Source: Deltaproteobacteria bacterium (GTDB taxonomy: Bacteria; Desulfobacterota; Desulfobulbia; Desulfobulbales; Desulfobulbaceae). Taken from it: a stretch of DNA of 34,750 nt. The DNA is taken from NCBI GenBank assembly GCA_024280455.1, contig JAJRQC010000123.1:1-34750 (forward strand), read 5' to 3'. The notes under the pieces are model-generated. The model did no database searches and was not told the origin of the DNA. It worked only from the letters and a program-made list of their open reading frames with translations. The position numbers and the translations under genes are program-made. This document shows positions 4,562 to 10,223 of this stretch, in pieces. Within the stretch, counting starts at the first letter, position 1; each line of letters opens with the position of its first letter.

Positions 4562-4715
4562 TGCCCCTGCTGAAATAACGGAACATAAAGTACAGGATTT
4601 AGGTGGAACATTTTCAGGCTTTATAAAAAGACTCTAAACCGTTATATTGGCACAGTTTCAATACTTTTCCATTCCTCAAACGATTAATAACTTTCAACTG
4701 GAGCATAGCGACCCC

Positions 4716-6005
4716 ATGAGCGACATTAAAAAAATGTACACAACCATTCTCGGTGACTCTTTCCCCATGGAGATGACTCTCTCATTCGGCGACCAGACCC
4801 TGGTCTATCGCAAGAGAACCTGGGGTATTCCCATGGAAGACGGATCCGTGGATGAACGTGGCCTGCGCTACGGAGAAAATCCGGACCAGGAGGCCGCCCT
4901 GTATGAACTGGTCAACGGCAACCTGGTGCTTGGTGACTGTAAATTCATTGAACCGGGCAACTCGCTGGTCTCCGGCATTACGGTCGACGACATGCTCCAG
5001 GTAGGTAAACATCCAGGCAAGATCAACCTGACCGATGTCGATAACGGCCTCAACATCATTAAATACATGGTCGATAAACCGGCTGCCGTTATTCTCAAGC
5101 ACAACAACCCCTGCGGAGCCGCCATCGGCTCGACCCTTGCCGAGGCCTATAACAAGGCCAACCGTACCGACCGCATTGCCGCCTTTGGCGGAGCGGTGAT
5201 CATGAGCAAGCCGGTTGATACCGATACCGCAAAGCTGATGGCAAAAAACTACCTGGAAGTTGTCTGTGCCCCAGATTTCGAAGACGGCACCCTGGAAATC
5301 CTGTCCAAGGCCAAAAACCTGCGGGTTATCCGCATGGACGGTATCAACCGGCTGGCCGACTTTGAACAGTTTCGTTTTGTCGACTTCAAATCACTCATTG
5401 ACGGCGGCCTGATCGTTCAGCAGTCGGCGGTCAACTCCATCCGCTCCATCAATGACCTGAAACCCGCCACTGCGACCTGGAAGGGACAGGAGTATGCCTG
5501 CAAGCGCAGTCCCGACCAGCGCGAGATCGATGATATGATCTTTGGCTGGGCCGTGGAACATGGGGTAACTTCAAACTCGGTTATCTATGTCAAAGACGGC
5601 TGCACCACCGGAATCGGCACCGGTGAACAGGATCGGGTCGGCGTTGCTGAGATTGCCGTTCACAAGGCCTATGTAAAATATGCCGACATCACCTGTTTTG
5701 ATAAATTCGGCATTCCCTATGCCGATCTGGCCCTTGAGGTTGAACAGGGTAAACGGGATGCCGGCGAGCTTGAAGAGATTGATGCCAAGGTCAAAGCGGA
5801 CCGGGCCGGTCTGCCCGGCTCGGTGATGATCTCGGATGCATTCTTCCCTTTCCGTGATGGAGCGGATGTAGGGATCCGTGAAGGAATCTCAGCCATCCTC
5901 CAGGCTGGCGGCTCCATGCGTGATTACGCCTCCATCGAGGCCTGTAACGAGGCCGATCCGCAGGTGGCCATGATGTTTACCGGCCAGCGTTCATTCAAGC
6001 ACTGA
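4716..6005 (+). CDS. purH: AICAR formyltransferase, PurH-type transformylase domain only
   Basis: 429 residues from the ATG at 4716; a longer frame opens at a TTG (4647) but has no ribosome binding site. Motifs include LRYGENPDQEAALY at the start of the domain and KHNNPCG, the Lys-His pair of the AICAR transformylase active site. The enzyme adds a formyl group from 10-formyl-THF to AICAR in purine synthesis. Bifunctional PurH (about 520-530 residues) starts with an IMP cyclohydrolase (MGS-like) domain that is missing here, so a separate cyclohydrolase is expected elsewhere. A terminator hairpin follows at 6058. It is preceded by glmU at a distance of about 155 bases and is probably a separate transcription unit. 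Confidence 0.88.
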   Translation: MSDIKKMYTTILGDSFPMEMTLSFGDQTLVYRKRTWGIPMEDGSVDERGLRYGENPDQEAALYELVNGNLVLGDCKFIEPGNSLVSGITVDDMLQVGKHPGKINLTDVDNGLNIIKYMVDKPAAVILKHNNPCGAAIGSTLAEAYNKANRTDRIAAFGGAVIMSKPVDTDTAKLMAKNYLEVVCAPDFEDGTLEILSKAKNLRVIRMDGINRLADFEQFRFVDFKSLIDGGLIVQQSAVNSIRSINDLKPATATWKGQEYACKRSPDQREIDDMIFGWAVEHGVTSNSVIYVKDGCTTGIGTGEQDRVGVAEIAVHKAYVKYADITCFDKFGIPYADLALEVEQGKRDAGELEEIDAKVKADRAGLPGSVMISDAFFPFRDGADVGIREGISAILQAGGSMRDYASIEACNEADPQVAMMFTGQRSFKH

Positions 6006-6139: not shown

Positions 6140-6570
6140 GACTGGTGTATTCCGAACAATACCCCTCGAAGCTGTGTCGTATCAGGCTATTTTCTTTCTT
6201 CGAAGTCTACGCTATCTGTTGTGGCTGTGACCTGTAAAACCAGGAGTCTGCGCTTCGCTCCGCTTATCTGGTCCAGCCATGCTGGTTTATCCGAAAATCG
6301 AATTGCGCAGTATTTTTAACGTAAGTCGTTGATTTTCACTGTTTGTTGTGCCGAAAAAGCATGGCGGTTTATCTGAAAATAGCCCATGAAGTATTGCCGA
6401 TCCGGGCTATTTTCATTTTTTTATTGTGGCAGTGGCCTGAAAAATCTTGATCCAGCCATGCTGGTTTATCCGAAAATAACCCCCGAAGTGATGCCGATCC
6501 AGGGCTATTTTCATCCTTCGTTGTGGCTGAGACTTGTAAAATCTTGGTCCAGCCATGCTGGTTTAAAAGA
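6140..6570. repeat. array of about four family-1 intergenic repeats
   Basis: The 680-bp gap between purH and the HEAT gene is filled mostly by this array. Three clear unit boundaries share CCAGCCATGCTGGTTTA (near 6285, 6465 and 6562), with a degenerate one near 6367, so spacing is about 82-98 bp. Units share GGCTATTTTC and TTGTGGC motifs. Orientation is inverse to the single copies at 2131, 10076 and 28323. The first unit holds an internal insert (GGAGTCTGCGCTTCGCTCCG) also present in the copy at 10076-10223. The rest of the gap, 6091-6139 and 6571-6685, shows no gene. Confidence 0.8.
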
Positions 6571-6685
6571 AAAAGATCGATTCTCATCAATGCGGCTCAA
6601 TTGACTTTGTCTCTCGTTGTCAGTATATTATAAGAAGTTATGGTTTTGTATTTCTACATATTTTTCCATTCCAACCCATGAGCTG

Positions 6686-8455
6686 ATGCCCACAGAATCC
6701 CGCAGCGATACATGGAAAACCGGTGCCGCCGACCTGCGCACGGTCTCTACCCTTACCCAGTTGCTGGCCGGTGCCATCAAGCATCATACGCTCTATCCAG
6801 AAGATCACTCCATAGCCAGACAGCATATCGGCAAAATCCACGAAACCTTTTCCCTGTTTTTCAAAAACCATAAGACCCTCCATATTGATATCGGCAAAAA
6901 CGCCCTGCTCTATGATGGGGATGTGGTCTTTCAGGGCAAGCCCGATGAAAATGATATCGCCTTTCTCCTCGGCCGCGACGGAGTGGAGTGGATGGAATTT
7001 TCCAGGGATATCGAACAGTGGGAGATCCAGGCACTGCTTAGAATTATCAACAACAACCGGCGCAGTTATGCGGAAAACGACGGCAATATATCCAATGCCC
7101 TGTGGGAAATGGATTTTCCCCATATCGAATACAAACCCCTTGACCTGATGGCCATGGACCTGCCGTTCCTCGACCTGGCTTCATTCCGGGTTGCCCCCGC
7201 CGGGTCCGGGACGGTGGCCGAAGAATATACGGCTGAACCGGCCGCAGATACAACGGCTGAGGGCAAGTCCTACCGGGAAGCCGACGATTTCGACACGGTC
7301 GAGGAAGAGAACGAAGAAACCGGCATCGCCCTTACGACACCGGGTAACGCCTTATGGAGTCTGAGCATTCTGGAAGAGCATCAACTCAAGACAATGGTTG
7401 AGCAGGAGGAAAACAGGGAACACACGGAAAGCACCATAGGCATTCTGTTTATCCTGCTCCTGACGCAAAATGACAGGCAGGAGGCAGCCGAAACACTCGC
7501 ATTCCTGCAGGACCGCTTCCTATACTGCCTGCAGCACCGACAAATCACGTATGCACTGCAGATCATCCTCACCCTGACCAAGATTGAAGCTGCCGAAAGA
7601 AAACGGCGGCAATGGATCTGCCCCCTGATTCTTGACCTGATCAGTACGGTTTCCAGACCGGAAAGTCTGCGTGACCTGGAAAGTTTTTTCTCCACCCCCG
7701 AAAAATCCGTTCCCGAGAGTGAGTTCAAACCACTATGGACACTGTTACGACTCCTGCCACCTGACACCCTGAAGACCCTGGCCCCACTCAGCCATACCAT
7801 CGATCTCCAGTATTTCGGGGCCTCTTTTCTTGGTCTCTTCGAGCATTTTGCAGCCATCGATTCACCGTCCCTTGCGGCAGTGATTCCGGAGACACACAAG
7901 GACATATGCCTGGGCCTGTTTCCATTTATCCTCAAGGTACGAACGAATCAGGCCATTCCCATCCTTACAGCCATGGCTCTGCATTCTTCTCCTCAGGTTC
8001 GCGGCAAGGCCTTTTCCCTCCTTGTAGAATGGGATGAAGTGGATCCGGGCAAACTGTTTCCCTTAATTAACGATCCGGACGAAACCATACGGAGTACGAT
8101 TCTCTCTCTGGCCGGAAAAAAACGTCATGCTGATATGGAACGAATGCTCCGCAACTATCTGGAAAAGTATACCGGGAATACAAAAGACCGTGACCACATA
8201 CTTGCCGGTTACCAGGCTCTCGGTAAATCAGGCAGTGCCGCATCCATTCCGTTTCTAAAAAAAATCCTTTTCCAGGGTTCCAGCCTCGGCACCCTGTTTG
8301 CAACCGGAGGTGGAGCGCATAAGGAGGGTGCAGCCCGGGCGTTGCGGGCTCTTCAGCTCCCAGAGGCCAAGGCAATTATCGAAGAGGGGGCAGGCCATAT
8401 CCTGCCCGATGTTCGGGCATCCTGCCGCAAAGCACTGGGGAAACACAATGACTGA
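6686..8455 (+). CDS. HEAT-repeat-like protein with an N-terminal domain shared with its HD-GYP partner
   Basis: 589 residues from the ATG at 6686 (a TTG at 6617 opens a longer frame but is less likely). The N-terminal 170 residues (LTQLLAGAIKHHTLYPEDHS, IDIGKNALLYDGDVVFQG) resemble in pattern the N-terminal region of the next protein. An acidic, low-complexity linker follows (about 180-225). The C-terminal half is helical; the last 130 residues have HEAT-like units such as SPQVRGKAFSLLVEWD, DPDETIRSTILSLAG and LPDVRASCRKALGK. No signal peptide or membrane segment. It overlaps the next gene by 8 bases, implying translational coupling and joint function. Probably a scaffold or regulator of the HD-GYP-like partner; the family is not one I can name. 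Confidence 0.7.
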   Translation: MPTESRSDTWKTGAADLRTVSTLTQLLAGAIKHHTLYPEDHSIARQHIGKIHETFSLFFKNHKTLHIDIGKNALLYDGDVVFQGKPDENDIAFLLGRDGVEWMEFSRDIEQWEIQALLRIINNNRRSYAENDGNISNALWEMDFPHIEYKPLDLMAMDLPFLDLASFRVAPAGSGTVAEEYTAEPAADTTAEGKSYREADDFDTVEEENEETGIALTTPGNALWSLSILEEHQLKTMVEQEENREHTESTIGILFILLLTQNDRQEAAETLAFLQDRFLYCLQHRQITYALQIILTLTKIEAAERKRRQWICPLILDLISTVSRPESLRDLESFFSTPEKSVPESEFKPLWTLLRLLPPDTLKTLAPLSHTIDLQYFGASFLGLFEHFAAIDSPSLAAVIPETHKDICLGLFPFILKVRTNQAIPILTAMALHSSPQVRGKAFSLLVEWDEVDPGKLFPLINDPDETIRSTILSLAGKKRHADMERMLRNYLEKYTGNTKDRDHILAGYQALGKSGSAASIPFLKKILFQGSSLGTLFATGGGAHKEGAARALRALQLPEAKAIIEEGAGHILPDVRASCRKALGKHND

Positions 8456-10079
8456 CAGGTTCCCCAAAAAAGACGTGCCGGCCATGAAGATTGACCCTTT
8501 GGCGGGACAACGGTTCCTGCAGGTCCTCAACGCGCTGTTTTCTACCGCTAAGATCCATCTGGATAACAATCAACTGCTGCAGAACTGCGCTGATAACTTT
8601 TCCAGAAGCATTGAAGAACTGCTCCAATTCGACGATGAAATTAACCTTCTTACCTCGGTAGGCTGCTTTTACCTGCAGCAGGAAAAAATCTTTCTGCAGC
8701 GGAATATCTCAGGTCTGGCCCGAAAGATGCTGGCCTATTTTGAAAAAAGGCAGATTGAAGGGCTGCATTTCAACCGCAGTGCGGCCTATGTTTCCCATGA
8801 GGATATCCTCGCCTTTGCCCGTCTCCTCAACCAGGCAAAGGACGAAGAAGACCCGCTGTTCTGGCTCCAATCCATGCTGGAGGAAAAGAACTATCACTGG
8901 GTGGAAATAATCAACACGACCCAGGCTCAGTCACTGGCAAGTATTTTTTCAAGCACGGAGGGAGCAACACCCCGGGGAAAGCAGACCGGCAAAGGTGGTT
9001 CCGGACAGAAAACGACTGAATCAGGTAATAAACAAGCCGAAAAGACGACGGCCGACCAGAAAGCAGGCTCTCGGGAAGACAGCCGTAAAAAACCAGCTTC
9101 CACCCCCAGACGCAGACGCCGGAGACGGACCCAGAAAGCCGTCCTCACCTACAGCTATGCCATGCATTCCCTGCATGAGGTTGCCGAACGACTCAACAGC
9201 AACAAAGCCGCAGGCCTTGGAAAATCAGTTCAGCTGGTCCAGAATATGGTCGATCTGGTCATGAGCGATGACAACGTGCTCCTCGATCTGTCCACCATTC
9301 GTGACTATGATGATTATACCTTTACCCATTCCATCAATGTCTCCATCCTGTCTCTCTGCCTCGGGAACCGTATCGGCCTGAGCAAGGTCTCTCTAGCCCG
9401 CCTTGGTCTCAGTGCCCTGTTCCATGATCTGGGTAAGATAGATATACCCAAAGATATTCTGAACAAGCCGGACAAGCTCACGGAAAAGGAATTCGGTATC
9501 GTTAAACAACACTCGATTAACAGTGTCCGACGGATACTCAAACTGCGGGCATCCTACGACCGCAAGTCGAGTATCATCCTGCCCCCGTTTGAGCACCACC
9601 TGCGCTATGATCTCTCCGGCTACCCGAAAACACCGCGCAAGACCCCGATCAGCCTGTTCGGCCGGATTATCACCATTGCCGATGTCTATGACGCGATCAC
9701 CGGTCCCCGAATTTATCGGAAGAGTTACATGAGTCCGGACAAGGCCCTGGGGTTTATGCTGAAAGACTCGGCCACCGTGTTCGATCCGATCCTGCTCAAG
9801 GTCTTTATTAATATGCTGGGCATATACCCTATAGGTACGGTGCTGTTTTTTGAGAATGAGGAGATGGGACTGGTCGCCCAGGCACCGGATGAAACCGTTG
9901 ATCCGCAAGCGCTTTGGGTCCTGCTGCTGGAAAAAGACGAAAATGGCGGGTACAGGAAAGGGGCCTACCTCAACCTCGGCATGTGGAATCCCGACACCGG
10001 AACATTCAACCGCCGGATACTGAAGACCATCCACCCGGCAGATCTGGGTATCCAGCCGGCTGAATTTCTACTCTTATAA
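8448..10079 (+). CDS. HD-GYP-like phosphodiesterase domain protein with variant active site
   Basis: 543 residues from the ATG at 8448, inside the end of the preceding gene. Order: N-terminal alpha-helical domain (about 10-170), very basic low-complexity linker (about 175-232, with seven consecutive Arg), then an HD-GYP-type domain (about 285-465). Visible motifs: THSIN (His294), HDLGK (His326-Asp327), KQHS, EHHLRYDLSGYP (GYP at 391-393) and DVYDAITGPRIYR (Asp412). Typical cyclic-di-GMP phosphodiesterases have HHExxDGxGYP; here the Glu is Leu and DG is DL, so metal binding or activity may differ. A C-terminal domain of about 80 residues follows. No sensor or membrane part is seen. The TAA stop lies at the edge of a family-1 repeat. 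Confidence 0.85.
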   Translation: MTDRFPKKDVPAMKIDPLAGQRFLQVLNALFSTAKIHLDNNQLLQNCADNFSRSIEELLQFDDEINLLTSVGCFYLQQEKIFLQRNISGLARKMLAYFEKRQIEGLHFNRSAAYVSHEDILAFARLLNQAKDEEDPLFWLQSMLEEKNYHWVEIINTTQAQSLASIFSSTEGATPRGKQTGKGGSGQKTTESGNKQAEKTTADQKAGSREDSRKKPASTPRRRRRRRTQKAVLTYSYAMHSLHEVAERLNSNKAAGLGKSVQLVQNMVDLVMSDDNVLLDLSTIRDYDDYTFTHSINVSILSLCLGNRIGLSKVSLARLGLSALFHDLGKIDIPKDILNKPDKLTEKEFGIVKQHSINSVRRILKLRASYDRKSSIILPPFEHHLRYDLSGYPKTPRKTPISLFGRIITIADVYDAITGPRIYRKSYMSPDKALGFMLKDSATVFDPILLKVFINMLGIYPIGTVLFFENEEMGLVAQAPDETVDPQALWVLLLEKDENGGYRKGAYLNLGMWNPDTGTFNRRILKTIHPADLGIQPAEFLLL

Positions 10080-10223
10080 ACCAGCAGGCTGGACCAGATA
10101 AGCGGAGCGAGGCGCAGACTCCGAGAGTTTTAACGTCATAGCCAAAACCAGATAAGCGTAGACTTCGAGGATGAAAATAGCCTGATACGACATCACTTCG
10201 TGGGCGATTTTCGGACAAACCAG
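10076..10223. repeat. family-1 intergenic repeat with internal insert
   Basis: It runs from AAACCAGCAGGCTGGACCAG to ATTTTCGGACAAACCAG. It has the shared ATGAAAATAGCCTGATACGA and CACTTCGTGGGCGATTTTCG blocks plus inserts AAGCGGAGCGAGGCGCAGAC and AAGCGTAGACTTCGAGG that are also found, inverted, in the first unit of the 6140-6570 array. Its first bases form the stop region of the HD-GYP-like gene. Confidence 0.75.

Follow-up and report, generated by a model that had tools for sequence, protein, structure and literature searches.

On contig JAJRQC010000123.1 of a Deltaproteobacteria bacterium assigned to the Desulfobulbaceae (assembly GCA_024280455.1), two overlapping genes encode a HEAT-repeat protein and a variant HD-GYP protein, and this pair is the subject of the present analysis. 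The stretch of DNA that was analysed has a length of 34,750 nucleotides and is called the window; all coordinates refer to it, and both genes are on its plus strand. Gene 1 (6686..8455) encodes a protein of 589 amino acids, here the HEAT protein, which consists of an N-terminal domain (the N-domain), an acidic linker, and a HEAT solenoid, and its homologues lie directly upstream of HD genes. Gene 2 (8448..10079) encodes a protein of 543 amino acids, here the HD protein, which has an N-domain, a linker, and a variant HD-GYP domain. Gene 2 starts with an ATG located within the last bases of gene 1, so that the two overlap by 8 bases (8448..8455). The translations agree with an earlier reading made from the letters of the DNA alone (the sequence-only reading) in the gene coordinates, the overlap, and the HHL..DLSGYP motif. 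The HEAT protein scored 39.4 bits with Pfam HEAT_2 (cut-off, 27.7), which places it among the HEAT-repeat proteins, and the HD protein scored 80.3 bits with HD_5 (cut-off, 27.2). In the AlphaFold models of the two proteins, the mean predicted local distance difference test (pLDDT) values are 83.9 and 85.7, respectively. The nearest named relatives of the HD protein among the matches listed show 71%, 59%, and 57% identity over the best segment and come from metagenome records titled Desulfobulbaceae or Desulfobulbus.

The two genes are kept together in many other genomes. For a census of 394 genomes of the phylum, the HEAT and HD profiles were searched separately, and the comparison took in HD matches of at least 291 bits and HEAT matches of at least 100 bits, together with five of 93 to 97 bits. 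Above 420 bits there were 65 HD matches in 49 genomes, and 64 of these had a HEAT match directly upstream on the same strand; the only strong HD match that was not paired begins at base 3 of its contig. All 59 HEAT matches above 250 bits had an HD gene, 58 of them with a downstream HD match among those compared and the last one confirmed by inspection. For the weaker matches, a HEAT match among those compared was found upstream of 15 of the 23 HD matches of 290 to 420 bits, and an HD match was found for 16 of the 53 HEAT matches of 100 to 250 bits. In a set of 20 mostly weaker HEAT matches that had been chosen before the HD census, 18 adjoin an HD-GYP gene, the exceptions being loci L190 and L193. 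Loci were also collected by similarity to the HD protein, and the best 80 of at least 188 confirmed loci were named. A HEAT gene lies just upstream in 75 of these 80, and in the other five (L106, L107, L108, L116, and L129) the HD gene is at the start of the locus. Among the 75 paired loci, the HEAT gene is truncated at the end of a contig or fragmented in L074, L086, L115, L122, L123, and L143, and at L086 the HD gene is also split. The record titles of the named loci include Deltaproteobacteria and Desulfobacterota groups, Nitrospirota or Nitrospira, Gemmatimonadetes, and Zixiibacteriota. When all loci were pooled, 199 of 213 HD frames were paired. Seven of the 14 others are at contig ends (L051, L061, L106, L107, L108, L116, and L129), four have a cut or broken HEAT gene (L074, L115, L123, and L143), and one is the split HD gene of L086; the pair at L177 was missed owing to frame overlap but is visible, and the frame at L073 is a different HD-GYP gene on the other strand. 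The sequence-only reading had suggested a search for this gene pair in other genomes, and the pair proved to be conserved in several phyla. Such near-constant side-by-side pairing suggests that we are dealing with a dedicated two-part signalling device.

The N-domains of both proteins, of about 145 residues each, are homologous; they cover residues 14-156 of the HEAT protein (6725..7153) and residues 15-158 of the HD protein (8490..8921). With 21 to 24 sequences per side, hhalign matched the two at an E value of 1.6e-4, compared to 0.15 to 0.58 for other block combinations. With up to 82 sequences per side the value was 5e-14, compared to 0.018 to 0.42 over 18 to 56 columns for four other block combinations, and with distant pairs added the profile-profile match reached 9e-23 over 140 columns. 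These three values rule out a chance origin of the similarity. This comparison had been proposed on the basis of similar N termini seen in the translations, and that similarity is real. The domains had also been described as helical, and here the shared domain is confirmed but its purely helical nature is not, as the AlphaFold models show mixed alpha/beta folds. The order of the elements (H, helix; E, strand) is nearly identical in the two models, with two helices, two or three strands, a helix, a strand, helices, and a last strand (H H E E E H E H H E in the HEAT protein and H H E E H E H H H E in the HD protein). Together with the conservation of the pair across phyla, the homologous N-domains support the two-protein signalling module that the sequence-only reading had suspected. 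Among 184 non-redundant pairs, the N-domain scored above 20 bits in 178 HEAT and 184 HD proteins, counts that hold partly by construction because up to 82 of the same sequences had gone into the profiles. In Pfam and NCBIfam, the two libraries searched, no family exceeded its cut-off in the N-domain. The N-domain profiles gave only short, low-scoring matches to PDB sequences, which we judged to be due to chance; the best of them, a cytochrome construct (E value, 4.8e-5) and the artificial protein octarellin V.1 (5.3e-4), were summed over repeats, and no single stretch was convincing. Full-length fold searches yielded no fold relative of the N-domain, and they hardly tested its fold, because the HD-GYP and HEAT parts filled the result lists.

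Searching the window's own genome with the N-domain profiles (E values up to 0.1) returned three proteins, namely, the pair and a protein of 977 amino acids on contig C11 (L199:3994-6927) that carries HEAT_2, cNMP_binding, and PilZ domains. This third protein has a match in 65 of 73 genomes of the family at E values up to 1e-30, many of these matches covering only its later part. The identical set of domains (N-domain, HEAT_2, cNMP_binding, and PilZ) is found in a protein of 1679 amino acids at L193. As both proteins carry cNMP_binding and PilZ domains, the arrangement of N-domain and HEAT repeats appears to be tied to nucleotide signalling.

The HD-GYP core of the HD protein (residues 285-458, 9300..9821) has all seven ligands of a dinuclear metal center, based on its alignment to PmGH of Persephonella marina (4mcw), on structure matches, and on the family alignment, and HD-GYP structures rank first in the fold searches. 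Conservation was counted over 179 aligned HD sequences, the HD protein included, with positions placed by alignment to PmGH. The seven ligands (H..HD..H..HH..D) are kept in 177 of the 179 sequences, that of the HD protein among them, the GYP triad is nearly invariant (G in 179, Y in 177, and P in 179), and D183, K225, and R314 of PmGH have their equivalents in 170, 177, and 176 sequences, respectively. The HD protein departs from the full consensus HHExxDGxGYP, as its motif reads HHLRYDLSGYP (residues 383-393, 9594..9626). This is the rule in the family, where L, M, I, or V takes the place of the E of HHE in 175 sequences, E occurs there in none, and only 6 retain the G of DG. Because of these two positions, we file the HD protein as a member of a divergent HD-GYP subfamily and not as a canonical one. 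In the portion of the PmGH study available to us, neither the residue after HH nor the G of DG is among the ligands, substrate contacts, or tested mutants (PMC4159591). For this reason, and because the seven ligands are kept, HHL and DL are, as judged from the alignment, the mark of a subfamily whose active site is intact and not a sign of decay. The sequence-only reading had expected that the variant motif might alter metal binding. That expectation is not supported, as HHL changes the residue that follows the two ligand histidines while every ligand of the dinuclear center is present, and a loss of metal binding through HHL is thereby ruled out.

Comparison with known structures points to the type of metal center. 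PmGH shares with the HD protein the HD-GYP fold, the seven ligands, and the equivalents of D183, K225, R314, and GYP (VIA-align Z score of 18.0, root mean square deviation [rmsd] of 3.5 over 190 residues). It differs in being trinuclear with E185 as eighth ligand, in its GAF domain, and in having HHE and DG, where the HD protein has Y, HHL, and DL. The residue at the E185 position is Y290 in the HD protein; Y is found there in 172 of the 179 sequences and E or D in none, which sets the family apart from the trinuclear enzymes. According to the part of the PmGH report that treats this position, Y marks the Y/F subfamily, whose members are more likely binuclear (PMC4159591). The best structural match is Bd1817 of Bdellovibrio (3tm8, 3tmb, 3tmc, and 3tmd), with a VIA-align Z score of 23.8 and an rmsd of 3.1 over 231 residues for 3tmb_B. 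In the passages we had access to, Bd1817 is described as having a dinuclear center, an N-terminal domain, and a helical linker, and no Bd1817 chain was among the matches listed for the N-domain profiles in PDB. Bd1817 is reported there to be inactive and to lack the GYP tyrosine and the last ligand aspartate, both of which are present in the HD protein as Y392 and D412, and the same 2020 review names it as the sole dinuclear HD-GYP structure (PMC8177086). The HD protein may thus be a dinuclear metal phosphodiesterase of the Y/F type, for which cyclic di-GMP (c-di-GMP) would be the likely substrate, with cyclic GMP-AMP (cGAMP) as a possible one in some relatives. If so, it would offer an intact dinuclear-type HD-GYP domain for study, unlike the inactive Bd1817.

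It could be argued that the HD protein binds c-di-GMP without hydrolyzing it and that binding alters its hold on the HEAT protein, the latter being the output. HEAT proteins are often interaction scaffolds, which speaks for such a switch, and an HD-GYP domain is reported to be used in this way in DvhD of Desulfovibrio vulgaris, as far as the accessible part of that report goes (PMC13090378; structures 9rbz and 9rc0). In alignments, however, DvhD is without some of the HD and HH motif residues, whereas here the seven ligands and the equivalents of D183 and K225 are kept, and such conservation across several phyla would be hard to explain without catalysis. We regard a pure binding switch as unlikely. 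Another possibility is that the pair is a phosphodiesterase acting on a different molecule, for example, cGAMP or pGpG. The position of the guanine contact K317 of PmGH varies within the family (R in 93, Q in 51, N in 12, and K in 12 of the 179 sequences), as might be expected if substrates differed; nevertheless, the HD protein itself has an arginine there (R424), and the other guanine contact, R314, is the one kept in 176 sequences. A different substrate for this pair seems to us doubtful, if somewhat less so than the binding switch. The sequences with Q at the K317 position belong mostly to a more distant class and to Gemmatimonadetes loci, and Q could mark a different substrate in them. 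PmxA of Myxococcus xanthus, most active on cGAMP in the text available to us, resembles the HD protein, by description only, as a divergent HD-GYP enzyme acting on cyclic dinucleotides. It has a specificity glutamine near the active site, which may or may not correspond to the K317 position, where the HD protein has R and 51 sequences have Q. Beyond the core, a beta-rich C-terminal extension (residues 459-543, 9822..10076; strands at 465-528 in the model) is present in the family alignment. Two other HD-GYP genes, encoding 577 and 564 amino acids, lie in tandem in the same genome (L063:4727-8158, contig C43) and have no N-domain match.

The partners also appear to belong to each other. In 160 of the 184 non-redundant pairs, the HD frame has a start codon no more than 30 nucleotides from the HEAT stop, most often with a gap of -4; the count used the start nearest to the HEAT stop, which favors small gaps. 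Fifteen genomes have two copies of the pair, and here the HEAT and HD partners fell into matching subfamilies or orthology groups in all 69 clear comparisons, which are not independent events as these genomes are related, while 36 comparisons were unclear. The distances among HEAT proteins and those among HD proteins correlate with an r of 0.94, a value that shared ancestry by itself could produce. One may object that the N-domain senses a ligand and that both proteins respond to this same ligand without touching each other, the pairing being a matter of co-regulation. The N-domain is indeed also found in the proteins with cNMP_binding and PilZ domains and so may be a general input module, and co-regulation alone can account for tight gene spacing. 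The near-obligate pairing and the one-to-one matching of subfamilies, on the other hand, exceed what co-regulation usually needs, and parallel sensing without contact is in our opinion improbable, to about the same degree as a pure binding switch.

The remainder of the HEAT protein is an alpha solenoid of HEAT repeats (residues 222-589, 7349..8452). Like HEAT/ARM scaffold proteins, it has HEAT_2 over the cut-off and matches to solenoid structures. The best of these were alpha-Rep and HEAT solenoids (e.g., 5dcq_B, with a Z score of 12.9 and an rmsd of 4.5 over 123 residues), where Z scores below about 13 may reflect an arrangement common to repeat proteins. The likeness is limited to the solenoid, the N-domain being outside these matches. 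Near the pair, a separate frame of 186 to 236 amino acids on the opposite strand matches the HEAT profile at 13 of 20 loci (e.g., L174:3514-4113, L181:3501-4061, and L187:9115-9720), and the three frames that were checked with Pfam all encode HEAT-repeat proteins.

Between N-domain and solenoid, the HEAT protein has an acidic low-complexity linker (7199..7330) with a net charge of -12 over 44 amino acids, and pLDDT is below 50 over residues 155-223. The linker of the HD protein (8931..9140) is basic, with a net charge of +13 over 70 amino acids, a feature that is not generally conserved. The sequence-only reading had proposed that these opposite charges could bring the two proteins together. 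The charges are as described in the window, but over 82 pairs the picture differs: the HEAT linker is net negative in 75 and the HD linker net positive in 29, the HD linker has a median length of 21 and a median charge of 0, and a clear contrast (-4 or lower versus +4 or higher) occurs in only 11, namely, the window and ten loci of its family. Because the contrast is so restricted and the median charge of the HD linker is 0, opposite charges can be dismissed as a general docking device. They could still contribute something within the window's lineage.

In summary of what is observed, the genes are kept together with tight spacing, the N-domains of their products are homologous, and the active-site residues are conserved. 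We propose that the two gene products are cognate subunits of one phosphodiesterase module acting on cyclic dinucleotides, in which the HEAT protein would be the dedicated regulatory or targeting partner, a proposal to which we give about an even chance of being right. The homologous N-domains would bring the HEAT and HD proteins together, probably as a heteromer, and the solenoid would then either link the enzyme to a target or hold the enzyme in check. The link to cyclic dinucleotides, which had been raised as a possibility from the translations, is plausible in view of the intact catalytic residues, the PilZ domain on the third N-domain protein, and the numbers of matches over the cut-offs in the genome itself (22 for GGDEF, 8 for HD_5 with one more below the cut-off, and 16 for PilZ).

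Several observations weigh against this proposal. The pair is patchily distributed, as strong HD matches occur in 49 of the 394 phylum genomes and close HD homologues in 23 of the 73 genomes of the window's family. The N-domain may also occur outside this partnership: L190 has an N-domain HEAT protein with no HD partner, the N-domain of L193 is inside one large protein, and L034, L036, L037, and L038 have HD-GYP proteins with weak N-domain matches (17 to 22 bits) and no HEAT match in the stretch examined. In the covariation analysis, the two N-domains scored higher than each of 60 within-cluster permutations, both in the mean of the top 20 pairs (z of 4.2, the highest of the blocks) and in that of the top 100 (z of 3.9). 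However, the best single N-domain pair was equalled or exceeded in 22 of the 60 permutations, the block of the N-domain and the HD C terminus was also above all 60 at the top 20, and at the top 100 this was true for seven of the eight blocks, so residual phylogeny may account for the signal. Finally, the context names no pathway, since conservation of the neighborhood does not extend widely beyond the pair. Related neighbors form a largest cluster of only 12 loci, at shifting positions (9 loci were skipped), and assignment of a pathway by gene neighborhood was rejected, the neighbors changing between lineages.

A broader proposal is that the N-domain defines a c-di-GMP network made up of a HEAT regulatory subunit, an HD-GYP enzyme with the signature HH[LMIV]..D(not G).GYP, and a receptor of the HEAT-cNMP-PilZ type; the regulatory subunit and the enzyme would form an obligate two-subunit phosphodiesterase. 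We put this forward tentatively and regard it as more likely wrong than right. Its logic is comparable to that of phosphatases composed of a HEAT scaffold and a catalytic subunit. Most descriptions of HD-GYP enzymes concern single chains to which sensor domains are fused. To our knowledge, which does not rest on an exhaustive search, no other c-di-GMP enzyme is built from a HEAT scaffold and a catalytic subunit. If HD-GYP enzymes of this form do depend on a separate, co-inherited HEAT partner, part of the cyclic-dinucleotide turnover in several environmental phyla would be the work of two-subunit enzymes, and their common docking domain can be tested directly. For HD-GYP proteins we drew on the accessible parts of five reports (PMC4159591, PMC8177086, PMC8844925, PMC13090378, and PMC10482364). 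The HD-GYP fold and HEAT repeats are already known; a search by title and beginning of the abstract, which covered the matches in part and did not reach most subscription papers, gave no description of the pair, of the shared domain, or of the HH[LMIV] signature.

As for the surroundings of the pair, promoter-like sites (3 found versus 3.2 expected) and terminator-like sites (7 versus 5.5) occurred at about the expected numbers. An AICARFT/IMPCHase-type (PurH-like) gene lies at 4647-6005 (tested as 4722-6002), upstream of a region with a repeat of about 97 nucleotides. This repeat, partly in tandem, occupies 6243-6574 upstream of the pair, and inverted partial copies follow just downstream of the pair at 10087-10223. 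A query of 127 bases taken from the repeat gave 101 matches in the same genome, often adjacent to each other and often at contig starts.

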